Below, in pieces: positions 1,089-43,471 of a stretch of 47,220 bases of DNA (positions within the stretch are counted from its first letter, which is position 1; the number at the start of each line of letters is the position of its first letter). The notes beneath the pieces were generated by a model. It ran no database searches. It was not told the DNA's origin and saw nothing but the letters and a program-made list of their open reading frames with translations. This stretch comes from a virus: positions 1-47,220 of the IMG/VR virus record IMGVR_UViG_3300048010_000183, one strand, 5' to 3'. The position numbers were made by a program, and so were the translations under genes.

Positions 1089-1093
1089 TACTC

Positions 1094-1786: not shown

Positions 1787-1809
1787 CTAATTCTTAACTA
1801 CTAAATATC

Positions 1810-2643: not shown

Positions 2644-2649
2644 GTAGTC

Positions 2650-3743: not shown

Positions 3744-3747
3744 TACT

Positions 3748-3975: not shown

Positions 3976-3978
3976 GTT

Positions 3979-5544
3979 ATGGAACAGGAGACAGCACAAG
4001 GGTTATACCATTCGTTGGAGAACCAGCGGTGGTCGTTTTTAGACAGAGGACGTCAATCGTCAGAGTTAACCCTACCCTATGTACTACCTCCTGACGGGCA
4101 CAACTACGCCACTAAATACTACACACCGTATCAAGGCATCGGAGCACGTGGTGTTCTGAATCTATCGTCTAAGTTATTGTTAGCTTTACTACCACCGAAC
4201 GCTCCGTTCTTTCGTCTTGTTATAGATAGATACGAACTAGACAAAGCGAAAGCTGAACTGGGGCAAGAGGGTGCAGAGCAACTGCGTACAGACTTAGAGA
4301 AAGCACTGGCTGATGTGGAACGTAGTGTATCACAGGAAGTAGAAGTACAGAACTTTAGGAACGGTATATTTCAAGCGTTAAAGAATTTGTTAATCACGGG
4401 TAACGCTTTGTTATACTTACCGGATGAAGGAGGTATGAGAACGTTTAAGTTGGATCGTTACGTTGTTAAGCGTGATCCAATGGGTAACGTTACGCACATA
4501 GCTGTGAAAGAAACAGTAGCACCTATGATGTTACCTGAGTCGGTACGGGAAGAAGTGTACAGACAAGAGAAAGAAAACACGTGTGATTTGTACACTGCTA
4601 TCGTGCGTGAAGATGATGAATTTAAAGTGTATCAAGACGTAAAGGGAATGCTTATCGAGGAAAGCGTAGGACGTTATCCGTTAGAAAAGTCCCCGTGGCT
4701 ACCCTTGCGTTACACTCAAATAGACGGAGAAGACTACGGACGTGGGTTTGTTGAAGAATATATCGGAGACATCCGCTCGTTGGAGTCGTTAACTAAATCA
4801 ATCGTAGAAGCTAGTGCAGCAGCAGCTAAGGTATTGTTCATGGTCAATCCTAACGGAACGACACGGGCAAGGACACTGGCTGAAGCTCCTAACGGTGCGA
4901 TTGTGCAAGGGTCTGAAGGAGACGTCTCCGTCTTACAACTTAATAAGTTCAACGATCTACGGACAGCACAGACTACAATGGCTGGTATAACAGATCGATT
5001 GAGCCAAGCCTTTCTACTGACATCGGGGGTTGTTAGAGATGCCGAGAGAGTGACTGCCGAGGAGATACGGATGTTAAGCCAAGAGCTTGAAGCTGCCCTC
5101 GGTGGTCTCTACTCTCTCTTAGCTCAGGAGATGCAACTGCCTATCGTCACTCGTTTGATGGATCGTATGTCCAAAGAGAAACGACTACCTAAGCTACCCA
5201 AGGATATTGTTAAACCTACCATCGTTACAGGTGTGGAAGCATTGGGTCGTGGTAATGATCTTAATCGTCTTGATATGTTTCTTGCTGGTGCTAATCAGGT
5301 AGTAGGACCACAAGCAGTCAATCAATATCTTAACGTATCTGATTACTTCAAGCGTCGTGCTACTGCTCTTGGTATAGAAACTGAGGGACTGATCAAGACG
5401 GAAGAAGAGATTCAACAAGCTATGCAGATGCAACAACAACAAGAGATGATGATGAAGTTGGGAAGCCCTGCCGTAGCACCCGCTATCAATGCTGCACAGG
5501 AGCAGTACATGGCAAGTCAACAACAACAACCTACCGAGGAATAA
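3979..5544 (+). CDS. Portal (head-tail connector) protein, T7 gp8-like (521 aa)
   Basis: Forms the dodecameric ring at the head vertex through which DNA is packaged and ejected. Length (521 aa; T7 gp8 is 536) and order before scaffold and capsid fit. Typical segments include YYTPYQGIGARGVLNLSSKL near residue 55, LPDEGGMRTFKLDRYVV around 150, and the YTQIDGEDYGRGFVEEYIGD region near 250. The C-terminal ~50 residues are Gln/Met-rich and low in complexity (QQAMQMQQQQEMMMK), as in other gp8 homologues. Confidence 0.93.
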   Translation: MEQETAQGLYHSLENQRWSFLDRGRQSSELTLPYVLPPDGHNYATKYYTPYQGIGARGVLNLSSKLLLALLPPNAPFFRLVIDRYELDKAKAELGQEGAEQLRTDLEKALADVERSVSQEVEVQNFRNGIFQALKNLLITGNALLYLPDEGGMRTFKLDRYVVKRDPMGNVTHIAVKETVAPMMLPESVREEVYRQEKENTCDLYTAIVREDDEFKVYQDVKGMLIEESVGRYPLEKSPWLPLRYTQIDGEDYGRGFVEEYIGDIRSLESLTKSIVEASAAAAKVLFMVNPNGTTRARTLAEAPNGAIVQGSEGDVSVLQLNKFNDLRTAQTTMAGITDRLSQAFLLTSGVVRDAERVTAEEIRMLSQELEAALGGLYSLLAQEMQLPIVTRLMDRMSKEKRLPKLPKDIVKPTIVTGVEALGRGNDLNRLDMFLAGANQVVGPQAVNQYLNVSDYFKRRATALGIETEGLIKTEEEIQQAMQMQQQQEMMMKLGSPAVAPAINAAQEQYMASQQQQPTEE

Positions 5545-5550
5545 TAAATT

Positions 5551-6333
5551 ATGGCAGAACTACACCGAGTAGAGATTAACGAAAAAGCACCGAATGAGAT
5601 CGAACCCGAAGAAGCTCAGACTGACGAAGTTACTGAGACTACGGAAGAACAAGCACCGACGGAAGAACGTCCTGAATGGTTACCTGAGAAGTTCAAGTCA
5701 GCGGAAGACATGGCGAACGCTTATAGTGAGCTTGAGAAGAAACTTGGACAAGCTCCTAAAGAAGATGAAGCAGAAGCTGAACAAGTTGAAGAGAAAGCTG
5801 AGGACGAAACGGAACAAAGTGAAGAGAACACTAGTGAAGCATCTCAAGTTCTTGAAGAAGCGAGTAAAGAGTTTTGGTCTAACGACGGTCAACTTAGTGA
5901 GGAAACTTATAACGCTTTAGAGAAAGCCGGATACCCTAAGCACATTGTTGATAGCTATGCTGAAGGTATGGCGGCTCTAGCTGAAAAGCAGCAGGGGGAA
6001 TTGAATAGTTTAACTCAGGGTAATTACGAATCAATGGTAGAGTGGGCCAATGAAAACTTACCACAAGAGGAATTAAATGCTATAAATAATACTATTACTA
6101 ATTCCGACATGAATATGGCTAAGTTAGCAGTACAAGGACTATACGCTCGTTATCAGAATGCTACAGGTAGTCGTCCAAAAACTTTAGTACAAGGTGCGGT
6201 TAGTGGTTCATCAACCATGCCGTTTAAGAGTATGCAAGAATTAGCACGAGCACAGTCAGACCCACGTTATCGTAGTGGTGACAAAGCTTATCATCAAGAG
6301 ATTGACAGACGACTGGCTGTAAGTAATATATAA
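5551..6333 (+). CDS. Capsid assembly scaffold protein, T7 gp9-like (260 aa)
   Basis: Internal scaffold that guides procapsid assembly and then leaves. It lies between portal and capsid, starting six bases after the portal stop. The N-terminal half is extremely acidic and Glu-rich with the conserved RPEWLPEKFKSAEDMANAY motif of phage scaffolds around residues 40-60. The C-terminal half is helical and ends PRYRSGDKAYHQEIDRRL, the capsid-binding type of ending seen in gp9 homologues. A 108-residue basic ORF in another frame of the acidic region is a shadow of this gene. Confidence 0.9.
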   Translation: MAELHRVEINEKAPNEIEPEEAQTDEVTETTEEQAPTEERPEWLPEKFKSAEDMANAYSELEKKLGQAPKEDEAEAEQVEEKAEDETEQSEENTSEASQVLEEASKEFWSNDGQLSEETYNALEKAGYPKHIVDSYAEGMAALAEKQQGELNSLTQGNYESMVEWANENLPQEELNAINNTITNSDMNMAKLAVQGLYARYQNATGSRPKTLVQGAVSGSSTMPFKSMQELARAQSDPRYRSGDKAYHQEIDRRLAVSNI

Positions 6334-6354
6334 TGTCTTTCATTCATAAGTAAG

Positions 6355-6801
6355 GTGAACAGATGCCTTGGACGACTCGCTTTGGTTTTCTTCCTTTTAT
6401 CGGTTATGGGGAGTTTTGCGGGTTGTTCCAAGGCATCATTTTATCCGGCTCTCGGAGCTACGGGTGGAGCAGCAGTAGGTAGTTTAGGAGGACCGGGACC
6501 CGCTGCGGGAGGTGCTGCACTTGGTTGGGGTGTGGGAGAAACAGCCAAATACATGGAAGAAAACAAACATTTAACGGAACAAGTTAAGGCGTTAAGTGAA
6601 GGAGATATTAAGCAACTCGTTAATAATCAACTAGATGCGTCAATGGATAACGGGTTTTTTGACGGTATGCTGAATGAAATTTATGGCTTGCTAAAGCTGT
6701 GCCTTATCGGTGTAGTCTTGTGGAATGTCATACCAATCATATATACGAGATACGTACACAAGAAAGCAAAAGATGAAATATCAAATAGAAAGATTACTTA
6801 G
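6355..6801 (+). CDS. Lipoprotein with C-terminal membrane segment, u-spanin-like candidate (148 aa, GTG start)
   Basis: N-terminal lipoprotein signal: basic N-region, hydrophobic LALVFFLLSVM, and lipobox FAGC with Cys24. Residues 31-62 are a Gly/Ala zipper (GATGGAAVGSL, GGPGPAAGGAALG). A second hydrophobic stretch spans about residues 111-131 (LLKLCLIGVVLWNVIPII), followed by a basic tail. An N-terminal outer-membrane lipid anchor plus a C-terminal inner-membrane segment is the architecture of unimolecular spanins such as T1 gp11, which fuse the membranes at lysis. The Gly zipper could instead mark a different envelope protein. GTG start with an AAG-GTG context. Its 3' end overlaps the 40-aa membrane protein. 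Confidence 0.6.
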   Translation: MNRCLGRLALVFFLLSVMGSFAGCSKASFYPALGATGGAAVGSLGGPGPAAGGAALGWGVGETAKYMEENKHLTEQVKALSEGDIKQLVNNQLDASMDNGFFDGMLNEIYGLLKLCLIGVVLWNVIPIIYTRYVHKKAKDEISNRKIT

Positions 6802-6895
6802 AATCTACAACGATCTACCACCACGTCAGAAAGTCCTAGTGTTGACAATTGGTGCATTTGTTGGTCTTATAGTAATCGGTAACATATTTAATTAG
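6773..6895 (+). CDS. Small single-span membrane protein (40 aa), holin-like candidate
   Basis: An ATG inside the 3' end of the lipoprotein gene opens a 40-codon frame with 29 bases of overlap. The protein has a basic N-terminus (KYQIERLLRIYNDLPPRQK) and then one hydrophobic helix (VLVLTIGAFVGLIVIGNIF) ending at the C-terminus. Overlap with the u-spanin-like gene and late position suggest a lysis or envelope role, for instance a minimal holin or antiholin, but nothing in the sequence proves it. Confidence 0.55.
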   Translation: MKYQIERLLRIYNDLPPRQKVLVLTIGAFVGLIVIGNIFN

Positions 6896-6898
6896 ACA

Positions 6899-7011
6899 AC
6901 TAGCGACTACTAGTCCCTCGACCCTCTGCGGAGGACAATCCTGTGCGAACGAACGAAGTGAAAGTCAACCAACTAATAACTACAACTATAAATAACTACA
7001 ACATAAAGGAG
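6899..7011 (+). promoter_or_regulatory. Structured leader of the capsid gene
   Basis: The 126-bp gap before the capsid gene is the longest non-coding stretch among the late genes. It holds an ACTAG/CTAGT hairpin (6899-6914), a CCTC-TGCG-GAGG hairpin (6923-6934), a perfect 12-base direct repeat AATAACTACAAC (6975-6986 and 6991-7002), and a strong ribosome binding site AAAGGAG at 7005-7011. This is where a class III-type phage promoter and a stabilising 5' leader would be expected, by analogy to T7 gene 10. The promoter itself cannot be pinpointed. Confidence 0.5.
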
Positions 7012-7021
7012 AAAATATATC

Positions 7022-8083
7022 ATGGCTAATGGAGATACATCCCCCTCACGTGTAGGACAGATTAATAGTGCTGGTGATGCAGATGCGTTGTTTCTTAAAA
7101 AGTTTAGCGGAGAGATTCTGCAAACCTTCGAAGAGTCAAACATCTTTAAAGCACTTCACACTGTTCGCACAATCGAAAACGGTAAATCAGCTCAGTTCCC
7201 TGTAACAGGAATCGCTAGTGCTGCTTATCACACACCCGGTGAAAACATCGCTGACGCTGGAAACAGCTACCTTAGCGACATCAAGAAAGCTGAGAAAGTC
7301 ATCACTATCGACAAGATGCTTTTGGCTTCTACTTTCTTAAGCAACATCGACGACGTAAAGAACCACTACGACATCCGCAGCGTCTACGCTAACGAGTTGG
7401 GTAAAGCTCTTGCTGTTCGTTTCGATACTGCTCTCGCTAAAGTATTCATCGCTGCTGCTCGTTCTGCTGCTGCCGTAACTGGTGGTAAGACTGGTGGTAT
7501 CCTTGATGTTTCTGCTAATGCAATGGGTGACGTAAGTGACTCAAGCGACGACGCAGACAACACTGATCCTACAGGTGCTGAATTAACAGCTGCTCTCTTT
7601 ACCGCAGCTCAGAAGCTCGACGAAAACGATGTTCCTAGTGACGGTCGTTTCGCAGTTCTTCGTCCTCAAGAGTACTACAAGTTAATCACTGGTGGTGCAG
7701 GAACGCTCGCTATCTCTACTTCTGCTGTCAATAAAGACGTCGGAGGTTTAGGAAGCATCGCTTCTGGATCAATCCCACAAGTAGCTGGTATCACTATCTA
7801 CAAATCCAACCACATCCCATCAACTGACTTGTCTGCTGTTTCCTCTGGTGACGGAGAAGCTGCTAACGACGTGTTCGGTGGTAGTGGTGTAGGATACAAC
7901 GGAAACTTTACTAACACGCTTGGTATCGTTTCTCATTCCGCTGCTGTTGGAACAGTTAAACTGCTCGACTTGGCTACTGAATCTGAGTACCAAATTGAGC
8001 GTCAAGGTACGCTTTTCGTTGCGAAGTATGCTATGGGTCACGGAGTTCTCCGTCCTGAGTGTGCTATCGAACTTCAGAAGTAA
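7022..8083 (+). CDS. Major capsid protein, T7 gp10-like (353 aa)
   Basis: Builds the icosahedral head (HK97 fold). The opening is typical of T7-type capsids: GQINSAGDADALFLKKFSGE, then FEESNIFKALHTVRTIENGK and FPVTGIASAAYHTPGENI. The central AVRFDTALAKVFIAAAR helix and the C-terminal FVAKYAMGHGVLRPECAIEL also fit gp10 homologues. Length is normal (T7 gp10A 345 aa). It has the strongest ribosome binding site in the window, a structured leader upstream and a terminator-like hairpin downstream, all consistent with very high expression. The second copy at 46746 is cut by the window edge. Confidence 0.95.
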   Translation: MANGDTSPSRVGQINSAGDADALFLKKFSGEILQTFEESNIFKALHTVRTIENGKSAQFPVTGIASAAYHTPGENIADAGNSYLSDIKKAEKVITIDKMLLASTFLSNIDDVKNHYDIRSVYANELGKALAVRFDTALAKVFIAAARSAAAVTGGKTGGILDVSANAMGDVSDSSDDADNTDPTGAELTAALFTAAQKLDENDVPSDGRFAVLRPQEYYKLITGGAGTLAISTSAVNKDVGGLGSIASGSIPQVAGITIYKSNHIPSTDLSAVSSGDGEAANDVFGGSGVGYNGNFTNTLGIVSHSAAVGTVKLLDLATESEYQIERQGTLFVAKYAMGHGVLRPECAIELQK

Positions 8084-12029: not shown

Positions 12030-12456
12030 GGTCGAGGAAGCTATGCCGGACATGGATGCGTTCGAATTGTACGACGACATGAGAGAAGAGGACATGATGG
12101 AATGTATCGGTCTTATGCACCACCCAAAGGACGCAGTTAACCTGTCGTTTGAGACAAGCAGTAAGTGTTATTCACTACGAGGTAACGACGGATTGTATTG
12201 TAGTTTTGGTGTTGCCCCTAACGAGAATGTTGGTGTTGTGTGGTTGTTAGGAACACGACGATTGGCTACCGCTAAAAAGTACTTTCTTAAACATTCAAAG
12301 CAGTGGGTAGACGAGATGATGATCGGTTTTGACTATTTAACAAACATCGTAATGGAGACTAACACGTTGAGTTACAGGTGGTTGCAATGGTTGGGTGCTG
12401 AGTTTAGCGATTGCCAGTACGACGGGTATATGTCATTTATATTAGAGAGGAAGTAA
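12019..12456 (+). CDS. Internal virion protein A-like, T7 gp13 position, GNAT-like (145 aa)
   Basis: Located where T7 has gene 13. ATG at 12019 is chosen because AAGGAG lies at 12005-12010; an upstream TTG in the same frame has no such site. The sequence (GLRVEEAMPDMDAFELYDDM, NVGVVWLLGTRRLATAKKYF, NTLSYRWLQWLGAEF) resembles the gp13/acetyltransferase-like proteins of marine T7-like phages. In T7, gp13 is needed for making infectious virions. Enzyme activity is not claimed. Overlaps the end of the nozzle gene. Confidence 0.75.
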   Translation: MGLRVEEAMPDMDAFELYDDMREEDMMECIGLMHHPKDAVNLSFETSSKCYSLRGNDGLYCSFGVAPNENVGVVWLLGTRRLATAKKYFLKHSKQWVDEMMIGFDYLTNIVMETNTLSYRWLQWLGAEFSDCQYDGYMSFILERK

Positions 12457-12458
12457 GA

Positions 12459-13016
12459 ATGTGTGTACCATTACCAGTAATAGCAGCAGCCGTGCAAGTA
12501 GCAGCAGCCGGTGCTCAGTTTGCAGGAGCTAGACGACAAGCTAAACAACAAGCTGCGTATCAAGCACAAGCGTCAGCAGCTGAGAGACAAAGATTTTTAC
12601 AAGAACAAACTTCCATCCGTATGCGTCAAGCACAAGAGCAGGAAGCTGTTGGTCGTGAGTTAGAACAAGTTAGTCAGAAGTCACAAGCTGCATTAGCTAG
12701 AGCTAGAGTGTCTGCTGGAGAAGCAGGTGTTGCAGGAGCTAGTGTACAAGCATTGATGGATGACTACACACGACAAGAAGCAGGGTATCGTGCAGCACTT
12801 TTAAGACAGCAAGAGTTAGGTGGAGTAGCAACAGGCATGGGTCTTGAACAAGCAGGGTTTGCAACACAACAACGTCAGATCGGTATTAATCAACCAATAA
12901 ACAGACCTAGTGCTTTGACAGCAGGATTGCAAGCGATCAGCGGTGGTCTTAGTGGATACTCAGCAGGTTTAGATATACAGAGCAGGATGAATACTCCTAA
13001 CACACAAGTTTCATAA
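12459..13016 (+). CDS. Internal virion protein B, T7 gp14-like (185 aa)
   Basis: Probable ejection-core protein that forms the outer-membrane part of the DNA channel in T7. The start MCVPLPVIAAAVQVAAAGAQ (ATG 12459, preceded by GAGAGGAAG) has the short hydrophobic N-terminus typical of gp14-like proteins. It is followed by a long Ala/Gln-rich helix (QAKQQAAYQAQASAAERQRF, ARARVSAGEAGVAGASVQAL) and a Gly-rich tail. T7 gp14 is 196 aa. An in-frame upstream start exists inside the previous gene but would add an unlikely basic leader. Confidence 0.82.
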   Translation: MCVPLPVIAAAVQVAAAGAQFAGARRQAKQQAAYQAQASAAERQRFLQEQTSIRMRQAQEQEAVGRELEQVSQKSQAALARARVSAGEAGVAGASVQALMDDYTRQEAGYRAALLRQQELGGVATGMGLEQAGFATQQRQIGINQPINRPSALTAGLQAISGGLSGYSAGLDIQSRMNTPNTQVS

Positions 13017-15303: not shown

Positions 15304-18300
15304 GGAAGAATATAAGAGGTGGAAGGAACGTCTTAGATCGAGAGTAAACGCCACTAAAGTCCAAGAGATTGACCAACAAGTCGAGAAGATAAGAACAGCT
15401 CCTGTAACAGCAGAGCCTGATGTTTCCGATATTACAGCTGAGATTGCACCTGAAGTATTAGAAGCTAGACAGATAGCTGAACAAGAAGTAAGCACAGGTA
15501 GACATATAACTGGTACTGCTTTGGGTGTTACAGCTGAACTAGGTACTGGATTAGCTCTTACTCATAAACTGCACAGATCACAGAAATACCTACAGTGGTT
15601 AAACAATGCAAAGCGTATATCTACTGTCGGTGTATTAGCCCCTGAACCTACAACAACGGTAGGTGGTGTCGTTGGTCTTGCTGCTACCGAGGCGGCCATA
15701 TGGGCTACTTCTAACTTTATAGGACAGAAGATACGACAAGCTTACGGACTACAAGACAAAGTGTCGGGTGGTGAAATGATTGCAGCATCTGTGTTTGGTG
15801 TGGGTCTTGTTACTAAAACTGCTGATAAGTTTATTAGACTCGGACCCGGTATAGGGGCAGCGAATGCTTGGAAGGGTCGTGAGATGCTAGTCAAAGGTGT
15901 TAATACTTTTGTTAGTGGTGCTGCCCTAGGTGTAGCTGAATCTGCATTACGGCAAGAAATAGAAGCACAATTAAACGGTAAAGACAGAGACGAATACGAC
16001 TACCTATTCTCAGGATTAGCAGGTGGTACATTTAATAGTTTGTTTTCTGTGTGGTCTAGAACTGGTAAGTGGGGTAGAGGGAAGGCGGCAGAGGCAGCTG
16101 AGAACGCTAAAGCTAGAATAGACAACGACATAAAAGACTTAAAGGATCGTCTAAAAGAAATGGACGGTCGTGGTCGTGGTAGTCAATTTAAGATTAAGAA
16201 AGAGATAGAAAAACTAGAGCAGGGTAAAGACCTTATCGACGATTCTATCAATGAGATAAAAACAGCAGACGAAGCTTTATCTAAACAGGAAACAAATCCT
16301 AAAGAAGTAGAAGATATAGATGAACCTCTGATTAAGAAAGAGGAAGAAGTTGTTGAAGAACCTGAAGTAGGGGAGTTACCTGAAACACTGCGTGAATTAA
16401 AACAAAACTTTATTAGTAAGAAACTTGCAGTACCTGCGAGGGAGGGTGAGTTCCCATTTATTGAGACACCTGAAGGATATTTTAAACAAGGTAATGTATA
16501 CAGACATAAAGACGATCCTAACTTTAAAGTAGAACAAACAGATGCTGAAGGGGTTGTTAAACTTGCAGAGGATATAGCTAACGAAGCGGGAGGTGAAGGT
16601 GTATACAACTTAAGGAGACACATGGGGCCGATGAGTAACCCTGAAGCTGCTTCTAAAGCTCTAAGAGAGAAAGCCGAAGAGTTAGCCCCCGTTCAACAAG
16701 CACAGCGAGATTTACTCCGTCAGAAGTACGGGGATACTGTAACTGTGTATCGTGTTGAAGACCCTGACTTTACGCCCTCCCCTGAAAGAGATGTATCAAG
16801 TTGGAGTTTAGAAAAGAAGAGTGTTGAAGATCGGTTATTAGTAGAAGGTACTGTATTAAAAGAGAAAACAATCGCTGTTGATGATGTTCAGTTTGTATAT
16901 AATTACCGAGAAACTGAAGTACTCCTTAGAGATGATGCAGCACCCGTCAAACCTGCTACCAAGCCTGAACTTGAGGTAGAAGAACCTGAGATACCACGTG
17001 TTGTTGATGATGAAAGAGAAGACGCTTTTGATGTACTACGTGATCGTGTGTCTAAAATAAATAACGACAATATATCTACGGAGCTACCACTGATAGAGCG
17101 TGAAGCTAAGAAAGTGTACAATCGTACATATAGAAACCTAAACGACCTAACAAGAAGACTCTCTAAGAATGCAGACGATACAGAAGCACTAGAGGAGATG
17201 TTAGCTGAAGTTAAGTTCTTTAGAAAGTTAAACACGGAAGTTAAGGATATAGCAGAAACTACTGGAGGACGTACACTACAAGCTGCTCGTAGAGATGCCG
17301 ATAAGTACAGATGGTTATCTAAGTATAGTTATCGTTCTCGTTTGGAAGATGCTGCGTTAGGTAAGTTGGAGATAAGTCTTGAAGCTAAATTAGGACGCAC
17401 AACAATCTCAGAAGATGCAGACATAAAAGACTTGTTTGATGACTTTGTTAAAATAAAACCACGAATAAAAGAAGCTGGTAAAAAGATAGATAAGAAAGTA
17501 ACTAAGAGAGCTGAAGCACGGAAGAAGAAAGAGGTTACTGAACAGCAGAAAGCTGAGAAACTAAAGAAAGCTTTTCAGACTAAGATAGGTAAACTACAGA
17601 AAGAACTAGACGATCTACGTAAACGTTTTGGTGATGATATAGCACTTGAAGAAGCACAGGCTAAAGTTAAAAAGAAGAAACCAAAAGACCCACGAATCGT
17701 AGACTTAGAAGATCGTATTCGTTTTTACAAAGAAGCAGAAGCTGAAGTTGGAAAGATTGAACAACTAGAGGCAAACTTAGCAAGACTAGCAGACATCGAA
17801 GGGCGTGGTGTTATCTCTGAATTAAGAAAAGAAGTAGCACCAAAACCCACAGGACCAACTAAGCCTAGCAAAGTAAAAGAACTACAAAAGAAAATATCTG
17901 ATTCTAAGAAACGAATGAAGCAAAAGCTTGCTGACTTAGACAGAGTTGTAGCGAAAGAGGCTAAAGAAAAGCAGGATAGAAATCTATACAACGATATGGA
18001 GCAAGCTTTCTTTGCAGCGTTAGAAGCGGATGCAGCTACAAAAGGAACTAAGTTTATAAGAGGTGTTAAGCAAGCTAGACAAATGGCTCTAATTGACCAA
18101 CTACCTTCTGTGTTCGCTGGTGTTCCTACTGGTATTGGTGCAGGGTTCAAGCAGTTCTTTAGAGTACCGGCAGCTTGGTTGTCCAATTTACCACAAGGTT
18201 TGTCTGTTGCTAATAAAATGTTTCATATAGAAGCATCTGCTGCATTTAAAATGCTGACAGACTTGAACGGCTTAGGAGAAGCTTTGCGTCGTACATTTGC

Positions 18301-20287
18301 TGAGAATATAAGTGCTACTGATAGAAGAGCAGGAAGATTGGCAGACGAGATTAGTACAGTAGGTTTACCTAGAGGAGAACACGCTTTGATAGCCAAAGCA
18401 GCAAGAGATGCTAAAAGAAGAGCAGAAGCTGTTGATAATGTGTCTAATTCGTTAGCGTCGTTTGTATTGAACGGTAAGTGGCACGAAATACTTTCGCTAG
18501 GTGTACGTGGTATTCAGTCAGTTGATGAGCTGTTTAAAAGACAGATAGTTAAGTCTCGTATATATTCTGAATCTAATAAGAAAGCATTACTTGAATTTCC
18601 TAACGATCCTGCGAAGCAACAACAAAGAGCAGAAGAATTATACAATTCAGCTTGGGTAGACAGTGATGGACTAGAAGTACTTAACGATACTCATCAGTTT
18701 ATGGATGAGGTTAATCAGGTGCGGGAAGAACTTTTGTTCGCTAGTAACACTGACGACTTGCAGGATGTTTATGTCAGTAGTTCTGAGAAACTTATAAACG
18801 CATTAAAAGATTTGAGCAATGACGACGGTTTAATGGGTTTCGTTATTAATGCTTTTCTACCTTACATAGGTGTTCCTATACGAGCAGTGTATCGAGGAGC
18901 TAGATTAGTAGCAGCACCTGCGAAACGTACGTTAGGTTTACTTGAGGTTTCACCTTTTGAATTACCAAGACGCATAGGGGAACAAGCAAATCCATACAAT
19001 AAGATTATAAGAAACATCGAGCTAGAAATGGATGTTGTTACTAAGCAGTTAGCTAAGTCTGAATTAGACGACGCTGCTAAAGCTAGTTTTCGTGATGAGT
19101 TTAATTTGTTGGATGAGCGATTAAAGACTGCTCAAGTTAGACGTGCTAAGTACAATAACGAACTACTGACCGACGGTTTAATCGGAGTTACTATAGCTGG
19201 TATAGGTTACGCATACGCACAAAGCGGTGCTGTTACTGGTTCACTTGCGTGGTTGACTGATGACCAACGTAAAAAATCAGGACTAGAATCTTTTAAGGCT
19301 TTTGGTAGTGACTACTCAGCTGCTTTGCCTTGGTCTTTTCCTTTAGCGTTGTACGCTGATTTAGGTGCATTCTATAGGATTAAGGACATAGAAGAAGAAA
19401 AAGGAATAAAAATACTAACCAAAGATCAAAACGTGTTTTCAGTCTTAAAACAATCTTTCATACAACTTTCTAAAGCAATGCCACTAGCTGAAGGCGTAAA
19501 GAACTTTGAAGAGATTGTTGGAGGAGAAGGAGAAGTTCTTACGTCAGCGTTTTCACGTTTAGTAGCTAGTTATGTTCCTGTGCCAGCTCAAGCTAGAAAG
19601 ATAGTACAAGCAATCGAGGCTGAAGGTGATGCGTCCGTCGCTGATTTACGTGGTGGTACTTTCTATGAGCGTATGATGTATTCTGTTTTAGGTGTAGCTC
19701 CTACCAATAAAAAGACAGACTTATTAGGTAATGATTTAATATCTAATAAGACAGCAATTACAGAAGCTATTGTAAGACAAGCACCTAGAAGAAAGAAAAG
19801 CCTGAGTGATTTTGAGAAGATAGTAGCAACAGATACACACGGTAATATTAGACGTAAACCTGCGACTTTGTACCCCGGTATCCGTATGACTGAGTTTAGA
19901 AACTCCGACGGTATGACATTGTCTTATGCTTTTGATCGCAGACTGAGGGACACACAAGTAAGAATTAAAGGTAAGAAGCAGTACATAGAGGATGCTGTAT
20001 TCGATTTAATTAACAGTAGCAGATGGTTGAAGAAATTTGATAAAGGTTTTGTTGCTAGTGAAACTAATCCTGATGTACTTGTAAATGAAGGACTAAAAGA
20101 TTTAGACAGCTTACTGCAAAAGTTTTATAAACAAACACAAAAAGATATGTTAAAAGATACTGAAGTTTTGGATGATTTTATAAACAGAGATGATGTATCT
20201 TTATACGAAATAATGGAAAACTTAGAAATGAAAGCAGACGAGGGAGGGCAACCTATCTCAATATTAGAAGTGCTTTCTGCTGACTAA
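15296..20287 (+). CDS. Internal virion protein D, T7 gp16-like ejection protein with an ADP-ribosyltransferase-like domain (1663 aa)
   Basis: Largest protein of the phage, at the T7 gene 16 place (T7 gp16 is 1318 aa). I see no lytic transglycosylase domain at the N-terminus, unlike T7. Residues ~30-230 hold Gly/Ala-rich hydrophobic stretches. Residues ~470-546 look like an R-S-E ADP-ribosyltransferase: KYGDTVTVYR with Arg486, SSWS at 501-504, and ETEVLL with Glu539 and Glu541. Residues ~560-920 are highly charged coiled coil. The C-terminal half has conserved ejection-protein-like segments (GFVINAFLPYIGVPIRAVYR near 1185). If the ART reading is right, the enzyme would be carried in the head and enter the cell with the DNA, as T4 Alt does. 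Confidence 0.8.
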   Translation: MTEEEYKRWKERLRSRVNATKVQEIDQQVEKIRTAPVTAEPDVSDITAEIAPEVLEARQIAEQEVSTGRHITGTALGVTAELGTGLALTHKLHRSQKYLQWLNNAKRISTVGVLAPEPTTTVGGVVGLAATEAAIWATSNFIGQKIRQAYGLQDKVSGGEMIAASVFGVGLVTKTADKFIRLGPGIGAANAWKGREMLVKGVNTFVSGAALGVAESALRQEIEAQLNGKDRDEYDYLFSGLAGGTFNSLFSVWSRTGKWGRGKAAEAAENAKARIDNDIKDLKDRLKEMDGRGRGSQFKIKKEIEKLEQGKDLIDDSINEIKTADEALSKQETNPKEVEDIDEPLIKKEEEVVEEPEVGELPETLRELKQNFISKKLAVPAREGEFPFIETPEGYFKQGNVYRHKDDPNFKVEQTDAEGVVKLAEDIANEAGGEGVYNLRRHMGPMSNPEAASKALREKAEELAPVQQAQRDLLRQKYGDTVTVYRVEDPDFTPSPERDVSSWSLEKKSVEDRLLVEGTVLKEKTIAVDDVQFVYNYRETEVLLRDDAAPVKPATKPELEVEEPEIPRVVDDEREDAFDVLRDRVSKINNDNISTELPLIEREAKKVYNRTYRNLNDLTRRLSKNADDTEALEEMLAEVKFFRKLNTEVKDIAETTGGRTLQAARRDADKYRWLSKYSYRSRLEDAALGKLEISLEAKLGRTTISEDADIKDLFDDFVKIKPRIKEAGKKIDKKVTKRAEARKKKEVTEQQKAEKLKKAFQTKIGKLQKELDDLRKRFGDDIALEEAQAKVKKKKPKDPRIVDLEDRIRFYKEAEAEVGKIEQLEANLARLADIEGRGVISELRKEVAPKPTGPTKPSKVKELQKKISDSKKRMKQKLADLDRVVAKEAKEKQDRNLYNDMEQAFFAALEADAATKGTKFIRGVKQARQMALIDQLPSVFAGVPTGIGAGFKQFFRVPAAWLSNLPQGLSVANKMFHIEASAAFKMLTDLNGLGEALRRTFAENISATDRRAGRLADEISTVGLPRGEHALIAKAARDAKRRAEAVDNVSNSLASFVLNGKWHEILSLGVRGIQSVDELFKRQIVKSRIYSESNKKALLEFPNDPAKQQQRAEELYNSAWVDSDGLEVLNDTHQFMDEVNQVREELLFASNTDDLQDVYVSSSEKLINALKDLSNDDGLMGFVINAFLPYIGVPIRAVYRGARLVAAPAKRTLGLLEVSPFELPRRIGEQANPYNKIIRNIELEMDVVTKQLAKSELDDAAKASFRDEFNLLDERLKTAQVRRAKYNNELLTDGLIGVTIAGIGYAYAQSGAVTGSLAWLTDDQRKKSGLESFKAFGSDYSAALPWSFPLALYADLGAFYRIKDIEEEKGIKILTKDQNVFSVLKQSFIQLSKAMPLAEGVKNFEEIVGGEGEVLTSAFSRLVASYVPVPAQARKIVQAIEAEGDASVADLRGGTFYERMMYSVLGVAPTNKKTDLLGNDLISNKTAITEAIVRQAPRRKKSLSDFEKIVATDTHGNIRRKPATLYPGIRMTEFRNSDGMTLSYAFDRRLRDTQVRIKGKKQYIEDAVFDLINSSRWLKKFDKGFVASETNPDVLVNEGLKDLDSLLQKFYKQTQKDMLKDTEVLDDFINRDDVSLYEIMENLEMKADEGGQPISILEVLSAD

Positions 20288-20309
20288 GTGCTTGAACTCC
20301 TCGCTCAAT

Positions 20310-20323
20310 AAGTAATAATATAA
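20310..20323 (+). promoter_or_regulatory. AT-rich 14-base motif before tail fibre, shared with 39528
   Basis: The sequence AAGTAATAATATAA occurs here just before the tail fibre start and again at 39528-39541 before the 105-aa gene that opens the other adhesin cassette. It could be part of a late promoter or a translation enhancer. Chance is possible because the motif is AT-rich. Confidence 0.25.
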
Positions 20324-20327
20324 TATC

Positions 20328-21251
20328 ATGGCTAACACCTACGTAGACTATACAGCAACAGCAGCACAAACTGACTTTGCTTTTACCTTTCCCTATTTAG
20401 AAGACGAACACGTAATAGTCGAGATAGACGGTGTACAGAAAACACTGACCACTGACTACACTATCGTAACTTCTCCGTCCACTAAGATTGTACTTACTTC
20501 AGGAGCTACTGCCGGACAGGTTGTTAGAGTACGTCGTAAGAGTCAACCCGGTATAGACCTTGTAGACTTTGAGAACGGATCGGTACTTACTGAAAGTGAA
20601 CTGGATCGAGCGTACCAGCACAACCGTTATCTGAACGAAGAGATCAGCGAACTAAACGATGCGTCGTTGCAGAAGAAACAAGGTAGCGATAATTACACAG
20701 CTAAGAACAACAGGATTGTAGACTTGGCAGACCCAGTAGACCCACAAGACGCTGCCACTAAGAACTACGTAGATACACAAGACGCACTAAAGGTAGATAA
20801 AGCAGGGGATTCGATGACGGGTGCTCTAGCTATGGGTGGTAATAAGATTACTGGATTAGGAACACCTACTCTTGCTGACGATGCTGCTACCAAGACTTAT
20901 GTAGATAGTAGTGTATCTTCCGCTGTAACAGGTACAGGACTTCCCCCATCGTTTGATAAGTTTACGGGGACAGGTTCACAAACAACATTCTCTTTGACCT
21001 TTACTACAAACGGCACTGCTTCCTCTTCAATTTTAGTAGCAATCGATGGGGAGGTAATAGACCCAGATGACTACACAATTTCAGGCGGTGCTGATGAAAT
21101 AGAGTTTACCACGCCTCCTCCTCTTAACTCAGAAGTTCTAGTTATTGAAAGAGGTTTTAAAGTTAAGACGGACATACCAACAGAGTATGATTGGGGAAGT
21201 ATAGTCGGTGATCCTGTTACCGCTAATTATTCATACGGACAAATAGTATAA
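20328..21251 (+). CDS. Tail fibre, T7 gp17 N-terminal type adaptor (307 aa)
   Basis: Attaches to the tail through a T7-type fibre N-domain: residues 1-110 contain YVDYTATAAQTDFAFTFPYL, DEHVIVEIDGVQKTL, TAGQVVRVRRKSQPG and LTESELDRAYQHNRYLNEE. Two shaft repeats follow (DPQDAATKNYVDTQDAL near 145, LADDAATKTYVDSSV near 185). Residues ~205-280 form a second domain that echoes the first (FTGTGSQTTFSLTF, SSILVAIDGEVIDPDDY). At 307 aa with no receptor tip it probably acts as an adaptor for the two fibre proteins encoded directly downstream. Confidence 0.88.
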   Translation: MANTYVDYTATAAQTDFAFTFPYLEDEHVIVEIDGVQKTLTTDYTIVTSPSTKIVLTSGATAGQVVRVRRKSQPGIDLVDFENGSVLTESELDRAYQHNRYLNEEISELNDASLQKKQGSDNYTAKNNRIVDLADPVDPQDAATKNYVDTQDALKVDKAGDSMTGALAMGGNKITGLGTPTLADDAATKTYVDSSVSSAVTGTGLPPSFDKFTGTGSQTTFSLTFTTNGTASSSILVAIDGEVIDPDDYTISGGADEIEFTTPPPLNSEVLVIERGFKVKTDIPTEYDWGSIVGDPVTANYSYGQIV

Positions 21252-21254
21252 GAT

Positions 21255-21845
21255 ATGAGTTTATCAGTACAATTAAGAAGAGGAACATCCGCACAGAACG
21301 CTGCGTTTATAGGAAGAGCTGGCGAGTTAATATATACAACTGATACCAAGGATTTGTTTGTACACGACGGTTCTACTGCTGGTGGCACTCCTGTTGGATC
21401 GTTAGCGTCGATAGCTGATGACTCCGTTACGTTTGCTAAGATAGAAGAGATACCAGCCAATACGATACTTGGTAACAATACAGGCAGTTCTTCGGATATA
21501 CTAGAGTTAAGCGTAGCACAGACTCAAACGTTGTTGAACGTAGCTGACGGTGCTACTGCTAACGATAGTGATGCTAACCTGAAGAATAGAGCTAACCACA
21601 CGGGTACACAGACTGCTAGTACTATCTCAGACTTTGACACGGAAGTAGCTAACAACAGTGCTGTAGCTGCTAACACGGCTAAGATCAGTTATACAGACTC
21701 TGCTGCTGTAGCTTTAAATACAGCTAAGGTAACAAACGCCACACACACCGGGGATGTAACAGGGGCAACTGCACTCACTATCGCTAACGGAGTAGTAGAC
21801 TCTGACAAATTATCAACAACATTAGACTTTGGATCAATCGCGTAA
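21255..21845 (+). CDS. Fibre protein with Mtd N-terminal-like hook (196 aa)
   Basis: Residues 1-50 (SVQLRRGTSAQNAAF, GELIYTTDTKDLFVHDGST) match the hook domain found at the N-terminus of major tropism determinant (Mtd)-type fibres. The rest is repetitive shaft: ADGATANDSDANLKNRANHT, GTQTASTISDFDTEV and ATHTGDVTGATALTI, motifs common in phage side fibres. It starts three bases after the adaptor stop. Likely a fibre segment stacked on the adaptor. No receptor tip is recognised. Confidence 0.75.
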   Translation: MSLSVQLRRGTSAQNAAFIGRAGELIYTTDTKDLFVHDGSTAGGTPVGSLASIADDSVTFAKIEEIPANTILGNNTGSSSDILELSVAQTQTLLNVADGATANDSDANLKNRANHTGTQTASTISDFDTEVANNSAVAANTAKISYTDSAAVALNTAKVTNATHTGDVTGATALTIANGVVDSDKLSTTLDFGSIA

Positions 21846-21857
21846 CCACATATAATC

Positions 21858-23036
21858 ATGGCAAACATAGAAGTAAAACTTAGAAGAGGAACCACATCAC
21901 AACACAGCAGCTTTACAGGTGCTGAAGGTGAAGTAACAGTAGACACCGATTTAGATACACTCAGGGTACACGACGGATCAACTGCTGGTGGTGAACGTTT
22001 AGCTAAATACAGTGAGTTAGCAGGAGCTGGTGGAGGTGGTACAGTCACGTCAGTAGACAGCGGTACAGGATTGACAGGCGGTCCTATTACTACAAGCGGT
22101 ACGCTTAGTATAGCTAACGACGGTGTTGATACGGCTCAGATAGCTGCTAATGCTGTCACAAGCACTGAGATAGCTGCTAACGCTGTTACAAGTACTGAGA
22201 TAGCTGATAATGCTGTTACCTCTACTGAGATAAGTTCTACTGATACGACCCTTAACGTTAACGATACCAATAACAATATAGGTACAGGTGCTTTAGCTGA
22301 CGCTGGTTATCAACTAACAGTAGACGGCGGTACAGGAAAAAGCGCCATATATGCTAAAGGTAACAAAGCTTCTGGTTATGTTGATTTAGACCTTGAGAAT
22401 GAAAGTGCGACTGGATCGGGCGGTCGAATGATAATCACGCAAGGTTCTAATTCAGCCTATTTCCAGTATCAAGAATCAGGAGAGCAGCTTAGTTTTGTTA
22501 TTGTAGATGGAAGTCTTAGCGCAAACGCTGGTATAAAAATAGCTTGTTCTTCTGCTTCTCAAGCAGCTGTTACGCCATCAGGTAGTATGTACAGTAATCC
22601 TAATTCAAATGTTGATTTAGGTAGTAGTTCTAATACTTGGGATAATGGATATATAAATGGAGGTTCTTGGACGGGTTCTGATCGTAACTTAAAACAAGAC
22701 ATAGAGGATTTAAGTGAAGCGGAATTAAGAGTGGCGACAGCTTTGAAGGGTCTGATGAAAAAGTTTAGACTTAAAGATGCGGTGGCAAAGAAAGGTGACG
22801 ACGCTCGTATTCATATTGGTGTCATTGCACAAGATGTAAAAGCAGCTTTTGAAGCTGAAGGGTTAGATGCTTATCGATACGCTGTTATAGGTGAAGACAC
22901 TTGGTGGTCTAAGCAAGATGAAGACGGTGAGTGGATAATTAAAAATGACAATCCAAACGACGCAACTTATACAGAATATACTAAGATGTCAGTGCGTTAC
23001 GAACAGCTACTAGCATTTATAATTGCAGCAATGTAA
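21858..23036 (+). CDS. Tail fibre with Mtd-like hook and C-terminal S74 self-cleaving chaperone (392 aa)
   Basis: Residues 1-50 are a second hook (VKLRRGTTSQHSSF, VHDGSTAGG) homologous to the preceding gene. Residues ~55-80 are a Gly-rich turn, followed by imperfect AANAVTSTEI repeats near 95-125. The C-terminus is an intramolecular chaperone/peptidase S74 domain: Ser274 and Lys279 in SDRNLKQDI form the Ser-Lys dyad with the usual five-residue spacing, then HIGVIAQDVKAAFEAEGL and SVRYEQLLAFIIAAM. The chaperone folds the trimer and then cuts itself off before Ser274. The receptor-facing region is therefore about residues 130-273. Confidence 0.87.
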   Translation: MANIEVKLRRGTTSQHSSFTGAEGEVTVDTDLDTLRVHDGSTAGGERLAKYSELAGAGGGGTVTSVDSGTGLTGGPITTSGTLSIANDGVDTAQIAANAVTSTEIAANAVTSTEIADNAVTSTEISSTDTTLNVNDTNNNIGTGALADAGYQLTVDGGTGKSAIYAKGNKASGYVDLDLENESATGSGGRMIITQGSNSAYFQYQESGEQLSFVIVDGSLSANAGIKIACSSASQAAVTPSGSMYSNPNSNVDLGSSSNTWDNGYINGGSWTGSDRNLKQDIEDLSEAELRVATALKGLMKKFRLKDAVAKKGDDARIHIGVIAQDVKAAFEAEGLDAYRYAVIGEDTWWSKQDEDGEWIIKNDNPNDATYTEYTKMSVRYEQLLAFIIAAM

Positions 23037-23040
23037 TACG

Positions 23041-23292
23041 ATGACTGAATCTGTCTCACACTTTCTCGACTCTGCCCTTGCCATCGTTCTTGGTGTTATC
23101 GGGTGGATGATTAAAAAACTAACAGATCGTTTGGAGAATGATGAGAGACGTTTAACAAAGATTGAAGTAGAACTGGCTGCACAACGTGAACGAGACACCG
23201 CTGTTGAGAACCGTATGACGGGTCTTGAGAGTAGTGTTAAAGAGATCAGCCATAAACTAGACCGCATGATGGAGATGTTGATGAAACGATGA
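23041..23292 (+). CDS. Holin-like membrane protein with coiled coil (83 aa)
   Basis: One hydrophobic helix near the N-terminus (FLDSALAIVLGVIGWMIKKL) is followed by a long charged coiled coil (RLENDERRLTKIEVELAAQ, SSVKEISHKLDRMMEML). Position after the fibres and before the terminase genes equals T7 gene 17.5 (holin). An inner-membrane protein for lysis is the best guess; an i-spanin role is an alternative. ATG at 23041 is preferred over an upstream start inside the fibre gene. The stop overlaps the next start (ATGA). Confidence 0.6.
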   Translation: MTESVSHFLDSALAIVLGVIGWMIKKLTDRLENDERRLTKIEVELAAQRERDTAVENRMTGLESSVKEISHKLDRMMEMLMKR

Positions 23293-23414
23293 AACAAGGA
23301 CTATACGCAAACATAAACAGAAGACGTAAACTAGGCATCAGCCGTAGTAAAAAGAAATCAACCATTACACCTAAAGCTTACGCCAACATGAAGCGTGGGT
23401 TTAAAAAGAAGTAA
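23289..23414 (+). CDS. Small basic protein (41 aa)
   Basis: A Lys/Arg-rich protein starting QGLYANINRRRKLGISRSKK and ending AYANMKRGFKKK. This GLYANI-type basic protein resembles small conserved phage proteins often found near packaging genes; function unknown, nucleic-acid binding plausible from charge. The ATG overlaps the TGA of the holin-like gene. Confidence 0.62.
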   Translation: MKQGLYANINRRRKLGISRSKKKSTITPKAYANMKRGFKKK

Positions 23415-23415
23415 G

Positions 23416-23652
23416 GTGGCTGTATCGTTGTCCATAGGCAGAGGTGAGAAGTCCCGTAAAGGCGGACTCACTGCAAAGGGTAGACGCAAGTACAATCGTG
23501 CTACTGGGTCTAACCTGAAAGCTCCTCAACCCGGTGGTGGTCCTCGTAAGCGTTCCTTCTGTGCTAGGATGTCAGGAGTAAAAGGACCAATGAAAGACAG
23601 TAAAGGCAGACCTACCCGTAAAGCGTTAGCGTTAAGAAGGTGGAAGTGCTGA
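23416..23652 (+). CDS. DUF6321-like small basic protein (78 aa, GTG start)
   Basis: Strongly basic. The motif GGLTAKGRRKYNRATGSNLK, then APQPGGGPRKRSFCARM and a closing LRRWKC are, as far as I recall, the hallmark of the DUF6321 family, present in many phages and of unknown function. The GTG at 23416 follows the previous stop by one base; an upstream in-frame GTG at 23395, inside the previous gene, would add seven residues. Two Cys are kept. Confidence 0.7.
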   Translation: MAVSLSIGRGEKSRKGGLTAKGRRKYNRATGSNLKAPQPGGGPRKRSFCARMSGVKGPMKDSKGRPTRKALALRRWKC

Positions 23653-23655
23653 CAG

Positions 23656-23841
23656 ATGCCTAAACCTTTTCGCAGAGCTAGACCCCGTCCTAATCCTTTA
23701 TTCTTTCAGAACAGGACTCTATCAGCTACTAGCGGTAGTGGTGGAGGTGGTAGCACTGCTGCTGTAGAAGTATCTATTGCCACTTTAAAAACCAGATTGA
23801 TTGCGTTAGAGTCAATAAAAGCGTTAGAATTTGAGGAGTAA
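23656..23841 (+). CDS. Unrecognised small protein (61 aa)
   Basis: Arg/Pro-rich N-terminus (PKPFRRARPRPNPLFFQN), a Gly/Ser linker and a short predicted helix (VSIATLKTRLIALESIKALE). No known family recognised. It fits tightly between its neighbours, with three and six bases of spacing, and shares their base composition, which supports it as a real gene. Confidence 0.5.
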   Translation: MPKPFRRARPRPNPLFFQNRTLSATSGSGGGGSTAAVEVSIATLKTRLIALESIKALEFEE

Positions 23842-23847
23842 CCATTT

Positions 23848-24111
23848 ATGAAAGATCACGTAGAAGGAGCTAAACTAGCAGACAACTATACTGAACTGTG
23901 TAAAGATGCAGTCGGGTACATGAAAGCGATGGAGGAGTACAACCCAGCTTTGATGAACACTGTGGGTAAGTGGTTGAAAGATAACAACATAACAGTTGAC
24001 AGTCGTAACGGTACTCCTATGGATAGTTTAGCTAACGATTTTAAAACTTTACCTTTCAGTGAACAACAAGACGAAACACCAAGAGATACCACCGCCTCTG
24101 CGGGACTTTAG
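23848..24111 (+). CDS. terS: Terminase small subunit candidate (87 aa)
   Basis: Position directly upstream of and overlapping the large terminase by 53 bases, as T7 gene 18 precedes gene 19. The pattern ALMNTVGKWLKDNNITVDSR followed by PMDSLANDFKTLPF resembles the xFLKDNxI...LPF ending of small terminase subunits of marine T7-like phages. It would recognise concatemeric DNA and hand it to the large subunit. The protein is short, so the call rests mainly on this motif and on position. Confidence 0.65.
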   Translation: MKDHVEGAKLADNYTELCKDAVGYMKAMEEYNPALMNTVGKWLKDNNITVDSRNGTPMDSLANDFKTLPFSEQQDETPRDTTASAGL

Positions 24112-25750
24112 AAACTTTCTGTACTTAGTATGGAAACATCTGAACCTGCCTGATCCAACAACATTACAGTACGATATTGCTGACTATATGCAGCACGGAC
24201 CTAAGCGGTCAACCATCATGGCGTTTCGTGGTGTTGGTAAGAGCTGGATTTGTAGTGCGTATGTAGTACATCAGTTGCTGCTAGACCCAACAAAGAACGT
24301 ACTCGTTGTATCTGCTAGTAAGAATCGTGCTGATGACTTCTCCACGTTCACGTTAAAGATCATACACGATATACCTATCCTTAAACAACTGAAACCAACA
24401 GAGAACCAACGGTTCAGTAAGATAGCTTTTGATGTAGGACCAGCTCCTGCGTCACACGCCCCGTCCGTTAAGTCCCTTGGTATATCGTCCCAGTTAACAG
24501 GGTCTCGTGCTGATATAATCGTAGCGGACGACGTGGAAGTCCCTAACAACTCCGCTACCCAAGGTATGCGGGATAAACTAGATGAACAAGTAAAAGAGTT
24601 TGAAGCGATCCTTAAACCCCTCGATTCGTCCCGTATATTATTCCTTGGTACTCCTCAGTGTGAAGATAGTATCTATAACAAACTACGAGAAAGAGGCTAC
24701 AACGCCCGTATATGGCCTTCGGAGTATCCGGATGAGTCAGAAGTCATATCAAACTACGGAGGCGATCTAGCACCCCTTATAGCGGATAATATAGACGAAA
24801 CAACAACCAGTACCACTACAGAACCTCTACGGTTTACTGATATGGACTTAGAGGAACGTAAGATGTCCTACGGTCGTACCGGGTATGCGTTGCAGTTCAT
24901 GTTGAATCCTAAGCTGTCGGATGCTGACAGATACCCACTGAAGATTAACGATCTGATCATTATGGACGTAGACGTGGATACTGCTCCTGAGAAAGTCCTG
25001 TGGTCGTCTGATCCAGATCAAGCGGATAGAACACTACCAAATGTAGGTCTCAGTGGGGATCGGTATAAACGTCCAGCTAAGACTATCGGGGATAACATAC
25101 CCTATACAGGCTCTGTACTATCCATTGACCCGTCTGGTCGTGGTAAAGATGAAACAGGGTACGCTGTCGTCAAGATGCTTAACGGTCAACTGTTTGTACC
25201 CGATGCTGGCGGTATCCGTGGTGGTTATGACGAGGTAACACTAAAACGTCTCGTCTCTATAGCCAAGGATAACAAAGTTAACAAAGTAGTCATAGAGTCT
25301 AACTTTGGTGACGGTATGTTTATGGAACTGATTAAACCGTTGTTTCGTACTACGTACCCGATAACAATAGAAGAAGTAAGACATAACAAACAAAAAGAAC
25401 TACGTATTGTTGATGTTATGGAACCTGTACTCAACTCTCATCGTCTTATTGTTGATCCCAGTGTTATTAATAACGACTATAAGAGTGCTCTTAGCTACCC
25501 TATAGAACAACAAACCAGGTACATGCTAATGTATCAACTATCACGAATAACACGTGATAAAGGTTCCCTTGTACACGATGACCGTCTTGACGCTCTATCA
25601 ATAGCGATTGGTTACTGGGTGCAGCAGATGGCTGCTGACGTTAACCAAAACATGATTGATAGAAAGCAAGAACTGTTAGATCAAGAGTTAACAAACTTTA
25701 CTGATAGCTTTTATAAACGTAAACGTTCTAAAGCGTTCCTCTGGTCGTAG
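24059..25750 (+). CDS. terL: Terminase large subunit, T7 gp19-like (563 aa, GTG start)
   Basis: DNA-packaging motor ATPase and nuclease. Walker A is FRGVGKS (residues 56-62) and Walker B DIIVADDVE (152-160), followed by the coupling motif LFLGTPQ near 200. The C-terminal RNase H-like nuclease has SIDPSGRGKDETGYAVV with Asp357, VIESNFGDGMF near 418 and a final DDRLDALSIAIGYW. T7 gp19 is 586 aa. The GTG start lies within the small-subunit gene, implying coupled translation. As in T7 this should be the last gene before the right genome end. Confidence 0.94.
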   Translation: MNNKTKHQEIPPPLRDFRNFLYLVWKHLNLPDPTTLQYDIADYMQHGPKRSTIMAFRGVGKSWICSAYVVHQLLLDPTKNVLVVSASKNRADDFSTFTLKIIHDIPILKQLKPTENQRFSKIAFDVGPAPASHAPSVKSLGISSQLTGSRADIIVADDVEVPNNSATQGMRDKLDEQVKEFEAILKPLDSSRILFLGTPQCEDSIYNKLRERGYNARIWPSEYPDESEVISNYGGDLAPLIADNIDETTTSTTTEPLRFTDMDLEERKMSYGRTGYALQFMLNPKLSDADRYPLKINDLIIMDVDVDTAPEKVLWSSDPDQADRTLPNVGLSGDRYKRPAKTIGDNIPYTGSVLSIDPSGRGKDETGYAVVKMLNGQLFVPDAGGIRGGYDEVTLKRLVSIAKDNKVNKVVIESNFGDGMFMELIKPLFRTTYPITIEEVRHNKQKELRIVDVMEPVLNSHRLIVDPSVINNDYKSALSYPIEQQTRYMLMYQLSRITRDKGSLVHDDRLDALSIAIGYWVQQMAADVNQNMIDRKQELLDQELTNFTDSFYKRKRSKAFLWS

Positions 25751-26286
25751 TCGTCGTTATCACTCCTCCTACTTACTATAACAAACTCTTTAGTAGCACC
25801 TATCTATCTCTCTATAACTGTGTTTTTGTAGTTAGTACAGATACAGGATTATTGTTATTGTAAATTCTAAAGTTAGACTTTAAATATGCTTGGTTTACGT
25901 GTAAACACACCTATCCTTAAATACTGTTGAAAGAAGATGACGACTATAGGATAAAAGCGTGTCAAGTCTTTGAGGAGCTTTTACAATAACAGTTTATAAC
26001 GACGACGTTTTAAAGTGTCCGTTGTTGTGGTCGTCTCGTCTAAAGAAGCTATTACTATTGATGTTATCGTTTAAAACAGACAGCTGTTGCAGCACTCTCA
26101 CTAAAGCCGTGAGGGGCTAGTATAACAACATACAGCCTATACAGGTTGGGTGTCAATAGTAGAGTTGTAAGTCGTTGTTATTGAACGATTTAAAATAGTG
26201 ATAAAAACTACTAGTAAAAATTAAAGCAAACAGATATACTAAACGACACTATGATTACAGCAACGACAACACTACGTTAACGTCTT
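25751..26286. other. Non-coding stretch after terminase; probable genome-end region
   Basis: 536 bp without a credible gene on either strand. It holds a GTTTAC-GT-GTAAAC inverted repeat (25893-25906), a CTCAC/GTGAG hairpin (26097-26113) and a perfect 10-bp palindrome ACGTTAACGT (26274-26283) just before the next ATG. In T7-like phages the direct terminal repeat lies right here, after the terminase gene. The exact ends cannot be read from sequence alone. Confidence 0.5.
26097..26113 (+). terminator. CTCAC/GTGAG hairpin in the post-terminase region
   Basis: Five-base stem CTCAC (26097-26101) and GTGAG (26109-26113) with a 7-base loop; it can be extended outward with a G-U pair. No clear U-tract follows, so it may be a processing or packaging structure and not a terminator. 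Confidence 0.3.
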
Positions 26287-40815: not shown

Positions 40816-40820
40816 AAATC

Positions 40821-41510: not shown

Positions 41511-41533
41511 CTAATTCTTAACTACTAAATATC

Positions 41534-42367: not shown

Positions 42368-42373
42368 GTAGTC

Positions 42374-43467: not shown

Positions 43468-43471
43468 TACT

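Follow-up and report, generated by a model that had tools for sequence, protein, structure and literature searches.

Introduction

T4-like and N4-like phages are known to inject enzymes. Among the modifying enzymes of injected polyvalent proteins, ADP-ribosyltransferases (ARTs) are the most common (Iyer et al., 2017; PMC5512222), and the ART Alt of phage T4 is packaged and injected, its target as infection begins being the host RNA polymerase (PMC9503650). ARTs were found in only ~3% of podoviruses, and contractile phages have been suggested to be better suited to protein injection (PMC9503650). In T7, gp16 is ejected and its two hydrophobic regions cross the inner membrane, so that residues 411-1118, which follow the first of these regions, lie in the host cytoplasm; the peptidoglycan hydrolase of these machines is swapped modularly between gp15 and gp16 homologues (PMC8954989). 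The subject of the present analysis is the large ejection protein encoded in the gp16 position of the IMG/VR virus record IMGVR_UViG_3300048010_000183, a marine T7-like phage whose whole stretch of 47,220 nucleotides is referred to here as the window.

The window's protein resembles T7 gp16 and the gp15-gp16 ejectosome in gene position, large size and hydrophobic segments. Unlike T7 gp16, it has no detected transglycosylase, and the proteins of its family carry swappable enzyme cassettes in a linker. Because it has no sequence homology to T7 gp16, it is called the gp16-position protein. The original prediction had already noted that no lytic transglycosylase is visible in it, and the Pfam search of the gp16-position and the gp15-position proteins gave no match to one; P22-type homologues likewise lack this domain (PMC8954989). 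The interpretation that we consider probable is that the gp16-position ejection proteins of a group of T7-like phages contain a conserved, swappable effector slot, filled in the window by a probable ART of the Arg-Ser-Glu (R-S-E) type that would be delivered early.

A conserved slot with exchangeable contents

The limits of the cassette were defined by blastn comparison with the related locus L015, where the matches end at 16363 and restart at 16967, leaving a 603-nt in-frame insertion in the window. Identity between the two loci is 80.4% over 3371 nt upstream and 93.4% over 2150 nt downstream. The close relatives L006, L008-L011 and L015 are devoid of residues ~358-557 and the remaining protein is intact, and another close relative, L007, carries a different cassette between the identical two bases (16363|16967). 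The insertion site is an acidic Glu/Pro linker directly after the N-terminal hydrophobic segments. The cassette is flanked by two copies of a 14-nt direct repeat, GT(T/A)GAAGAACCTGA (encoding VEEPE), and the pattern GTNGAAGAACCTGA fits only two places in the window. Cassettes are gained, lost and swapped at this site, probably by recombination between repeats in the EEPE-type DNA of the linker.

A scan with an N-terminal profile provided 80 loci with 64 distinct complete slot sequences, 49 of which are empty (short linkers with 33% Asp/Glu, 12% Pro and 0.5% aromatic residues) and 15 filled. The L007 cassette is an ART-PolyVal domain (PF18760; 32.9 bits, cut-off 31.2, E 1.3e-7 in Pfam) and recurs, 86-92% identical, in the ejection proteins of L074 and L075, which are only remotely homologous to that of the window (hhalign probabilities of 99.5% and 95.2%). 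In the hhalign register, residue 368 of the window's protein falls near residue 442 of L088, at the L088 slot. Both remote families, represented by L074 and L075, have members with an empty slot, and one of them contains two more cassette types. The slot of L144 holds a GNAT acetyltransferase (34.8 bits, cut-off 20.7, Pfam) and that of L131 combines a methyltransferase (26.4 bits, cut-off 21.2) with a subsequent ART-PolyVal match below the cut-off (24.9 bits), whereas L149 gave an ART-PolyVal match that was likewise below the cut-off (29.1 bits). Four cassette types, those of L042, L052, L132 and the L061/L071/L159/L177 type, had no Pfam identification; the L132 cassette shares 44-47% identity with that of L092/L094, from the remote F75 family. 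Slot domains are paired in L131 and L144, and the window's ejection protein has one cassette only. The most common recognisable content of the slot is an ART. The proposal of the original prediction that an effector enzyme may be built into the DNA-ejection machine is, as judged from the ART-PolyVal, GNAT and methyltransferase domains of the relatives, well supported for the protein family, whereas the window's own domain is not settled as an ART.

Several other observations were made in the same set of loci. A cassette of ~90 aa (KGVDE..GSPVEVVVKW..DGSRG) is common to L061, L071, L072, L159, L177 and L184, being 53-93% identical over the slot on divergent backbones. In L149, a second domain of ~200 aa without a Pfam match follows the ART-like domain. 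The slot of L136 (FFHGSP, GKGLYLT, DEYLVFD) and the truncated second domain of L144 look ART-like by eye; the former was unconfirmed by Pfam or an ad hoc profile, the latter was also unconfirmed, and neither was counted. In the podovirus-like contig L076 (6001-6555), a stand-alone 416-aa gene situated among putative internal virion protein genes has an ART-PolyVal-like domain that is 25% identical to the L007 cassette.

Identity of the cassette of the window

The original prediction of an R-S-E ART was based on Arg486, SSWS at residues 501-504 and ETEVLL from residue 539 of the gp16-like protein, and these residues were found exactly there. Their order (R486, SSWS, ETE541) is that of R-S-E ARTs, in which strand 1 carries the Arg, strand 2 S-x-S and strand 5 E/Q-x-E, and the predicted secondary structure, a strand with the Arg, a strand with SSWS followed by a helix, two strands and a strand with ETE, fits the same order. 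A strict pattern, [VIL][YFW]R-x8-30-S[TW][ST]-x20-50-[EQ]xE[VILF][VIL], occurred in none of 2000 shuffles of the 1663-aa protein; a very loose R..SxS..ExE pattern is uninformative, because it was present in 70% of the shuffles of the same protein. In 456,848 residues of phage open frames, an 'aromatic' R-S-E pattern matched only the cassette family, the real ARTs Alt/ModB together with relatives of ModA/ModB, and a single unrelated frame, and one shuffle of every segment gave 3 matches, which means that ~0.01 would be expected per 1663-aa protein; all of these patterns were composed after the motif had been seen. The motif residues are invariant across the three natural versions of the cassette, which is weak evidence because the versions are about 80-90% identical overall. 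Neither a different fold nor a loss of the Arg, Ser and Glu residues, either of which would have contradicted the prediction, was encountered. Motif, strand order, the IcmQ fold match described below and the prevalence of ARTs among recognisable slot contents make it fairly probable that the cassette is a mono-ADP-ribosyltransferase of the R-S-E type; no named ART family is assigned to it.

The best PDB fold match of the full-cassette model was IcmQ (PDB 4eyy; E 0.016, probability 0.72), whose C-terminal domain has an ART-like NAD-binding fold. IcmQ is a component of a secretion system, it has no sequence similarity to the cassette, and the weak score comes from a low-confidence model. Foldseek against viral models returned no match for the domain.

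Several results weigh against the proposed reading. The AlphaFold models of the cassette are of low confidence (mean pLDDT 45 and 54), and with the model of the core only, IcmQ went down to rank 4 (E 1.3). The cassette had no significant sequence match in Pfam, PHROG, NCBIfam or PDB, the ART profiles PF03496 and PF01129 included; motif, conservation and strand order fit the original prediction. The cassette is known in just three versions, which are fairly similar to one another. At the level of the whole protein, T7 gp16 showed no sequence match to the ejection protein (hhalign probability of 2% with the C-terminal profile), and gene order is the sole basis for assuming that the protein is packaged and ejected.

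Other searches were also negative. The ART-PolyVal profile PF18760 did not match the window's cassette, PADLOC defence models gave no match, and GTDB genomes, annotated phages and plasmids yielded no distant homologues of the cassette. Profile-profile comparison (hhalign) with T4 Alt, ModA and ModB was null, which is uninformative because the same test misses a verified ART. The core matched PHROG 25265 in all three versions (E 0.11-0.16), but gave no match when the window record was searched, and this family was not used. Weak matches in annotated phages were chance-like on inspection, and two of them, in Klebsiella phages, are antisense to annotated genes.

The main alternative accepts a real, effector-carrying slot but sees in the cassette of the window another small enzyme or a binding domain, such as a nuclease or a domain that inhibits a defence protein, with a resemblance to ARTs limited to the Arg, Ser and Glu residues. 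This is unlikely, though it is the alternative to be taken most seriously. In its favour, an ART profile match is missing, at least four other slot contents are equally without assignment and not ART-like, and the restriction enzyme model UpaP162 matched weakly (16.9 bits against a cut-off of 100, and was rejected). On the opposite side, the R-S-E pattern is rare and elsewhere picks out real ARTs, and the predicted strands, the IcmQ match and the prevalence of ARTs among recognisable slot contents all fit an ART.

Movement and selection of the cassette

The cassette of the window was also found, in the same linker, in L001, L002 and L003, which are contigs from other samples. Its amino acid identity to L001 and L002 is 0.91 and 0.83, compared with 0.31 and 0.49 for the C-terminal backbone. 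Between the window and L001, the synonymous divergence (dS) is 0.24 in the cassette versus 1.9 in the backbone, a difference that indicates a comparatively recent exchange of the cassette. The ratios of non-synonymous to synonymous divergence (dN/dS), ~0.19 and 0.11, indicate that it is under purifying selection. These divergences imply that the cassette has moved horizontally between ejection-protein backbones.

These data bear on a second alternative, according to which the cassettes would serve the ejection machine as structural or regulatory spacers, for instance adjusters of length or packing, and would not be effectors. Length variation is tolerated in the same proteins, as the varying number of coiled-coil units reveals. 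This explanation is nevertheless improbable: the slot contents are mutually unrelated and include recognisable enzymes (ART-PolyVal, GNAT, methyltransferase), the cassettes are under purifying selection and have been moved between distant backbones, and most relatives are without any cassette.

Proposed delivery and relation to known systems

The slot itself is an acidic, proline-rich and aromatic-poor linker that accommodates cassettes of ~100-500 aa. In the proposed mechanism, by analogy with T7 gp16, the ejection protein would carry its cassette in the phage head and be threaded into the cell before the DNA or together with it, and the cassette would be left on the cytoplasmic side after membrane insertion. 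Since the first hydrophobic block immediately precedes the slot, the same analogy would place it facing the cytoplasm; the analogy rests on gene position because T7 gp16 has no sequence match to the protein. Packaging and delivery of the window's protein are likewise inferred from gene position and T7 gp16. Once inside, the cassette may use NAD to modify a host protein before phage gene expression, in the manner of T4 Alt, with RNA polymerase or a defence component as candidates.

The domain kinds found in the slots of the relatives are those of the polyvalent proteins of phages and conjugative elements, injected multi-domain proteins that combine ART, GNAT and methyltransferase domains (PMC5512222). 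In contrast to these, the carrier is here an ejection protein of the T7 type in the gp16 position, with effectors in one defined linker slot. A possible case of two effector domains in one polypeptide, as in polyvalent proteins, is L131, with its methyltransferase and sub-threshold ART-PolyVal-like domain; the protein of the window shows a single cassette. The cassette of the window differs from ART-PolyVal in having R-S-E instead of H-Y-D. It shares the motif order of T4 Alt, ModA and ModB (the Alt/VIP2 clade of R-S-E ARTs), although it has no profile similarity to Alt/Mod, and Alt is a separate head protein whereas this domain lies inside an ejection protein. A podovirus virion RNA polymerase (vRNAP) with an ART offers a parallel, since it too is a giant podovirus protein that is ejected and contains an ART, but there the carrier is the vRNAP, the phage belongs to another family and the ART is of the ART-PolyVal/HYD2 type.

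In the open-access literature, no paper was found that joins injected effectors with ejection-protein domain swapping for T7-type ejection proteins. The effector-slot reading would extend the injected polyvalent effectors to T7-like phages and, if true, small phages (~40 kb) could modify the host before their own transcription; the slot would also help to explain the strong size variation of ejection proteins. Reading the contents of the slot also offers a simple route to early-acting enzymes directed against the host or its defences. A broader version, for which the chances appear evenly balanced, is that marine phages use their T7-type ejection proteins as a general platform for delivering effectors, with one homologous linker slot at the first cytoplasmic stretch and a traded pool of two ART active-site types, acetyltransferases, methyltransferases and other families that would act before the first phage transcript; the cassette of the window would then found a new R-S-E ART family.

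Genome context and features of the ejection protein

Coordinates of the features of the window (all positions on the 47,220-nt stretch)
Feature	Position	Strand	Basis
Putative effector cassette, 603 nt, in acidic linker	16364..16966	+	blastn against L015 and L007; protein alignment
Predicted R-S-E ART-like core, residues 463-548	16682..16939	+	motif and predicted strand order
Arg486, candidate first-strand Arg	16751..16753	+	motif position; invariant in three versions
SSWS, residues 501-504, candidate S-x-S strand	16796..16807	+	motif position; invariant in three versions
E539-T-E541, candidate E-x-E motif (ETEVLL begins at residue 539)	16910..16918	+	motif position; invariant in three versions
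Direct repeat (14 nt), left copy GTTGAAGAACCTGA, encodes VEEPE	16352..16365	+	
Direct repeat (14 nt), right copy GTAGAAGAACCTGA	16976..16989	+	
gp16-position ejection (internal virion) protein, 1663 aa	15296..20287	+	single open frame; gp14/gp15-position genes before and T7-type tail fibre gene after, as in T7
N-terminal conserved block with hydrophobic segments, residues 75-264	15518..16087	+	hydropathy peaks 71-197; profile A8
Conserved C-terminal region, residues 900-1663	17993..20284	+	alignments A2, A7; 59 related loci
gp14-like internal virion protein	12411..13016	+	PF24072 T7_gp14, E 3.7e-24
gp15-position internal virion protein, 761 aa	13018..15303	+	position only

The gene set of the window is that of a T7-like phage and comprises portal, scaffold, capsid, tube, nozzle, gp13-like, gp14-like, gp15-position and gp16-position genes, together with a T7-type tail fibre, a T7-type terminase, a single-subunit RNA polymerase, a primase-helicase and DNA polymerase A. 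The ejection protein gene lies between gp14/gp15 and the tail fibre gene, the position of gene 16 in T7, and the gp15-position protein had neither a Pfam nor a PHROG match. Besides the N-terminal hydropathy peaks, the ejection protein has peaks at residues 930, 1180 and 1290. A coiled-coil unit of ~135 aa (window 17500-17960, residues ~743-885) is single in the window's protein and present in two or three tandem copies in relatives (L001, L039, L068), the lengths of the region being 280, 403, 544 and 681 aa; it is possibly a length-setting element.

The first part of the window (1-7496) is repeated at 39727-47220 with 97.6% identity (171 mismatches, 7 gaps), which indicates that the contig consists of one genome of ~39.7 kb followed by the beginning of the genome from a second strain. 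This strain-chimeric overlap of 7.5 kb raises the question of whether a misassembled metagenome contig joined the cassette into the gene, an artefact that is very improbable, given that the ejection protein gene lies outside the end overlap, that its frame is open across 1663 codons and that L001, L002 and L003, from other samples, have the same cassette in the same linker. Window 17414-26284 is matched at 99.99% identity by the contig L005, which comes from another sample; this indicates that the phage of the window recurs nearly unchanged.
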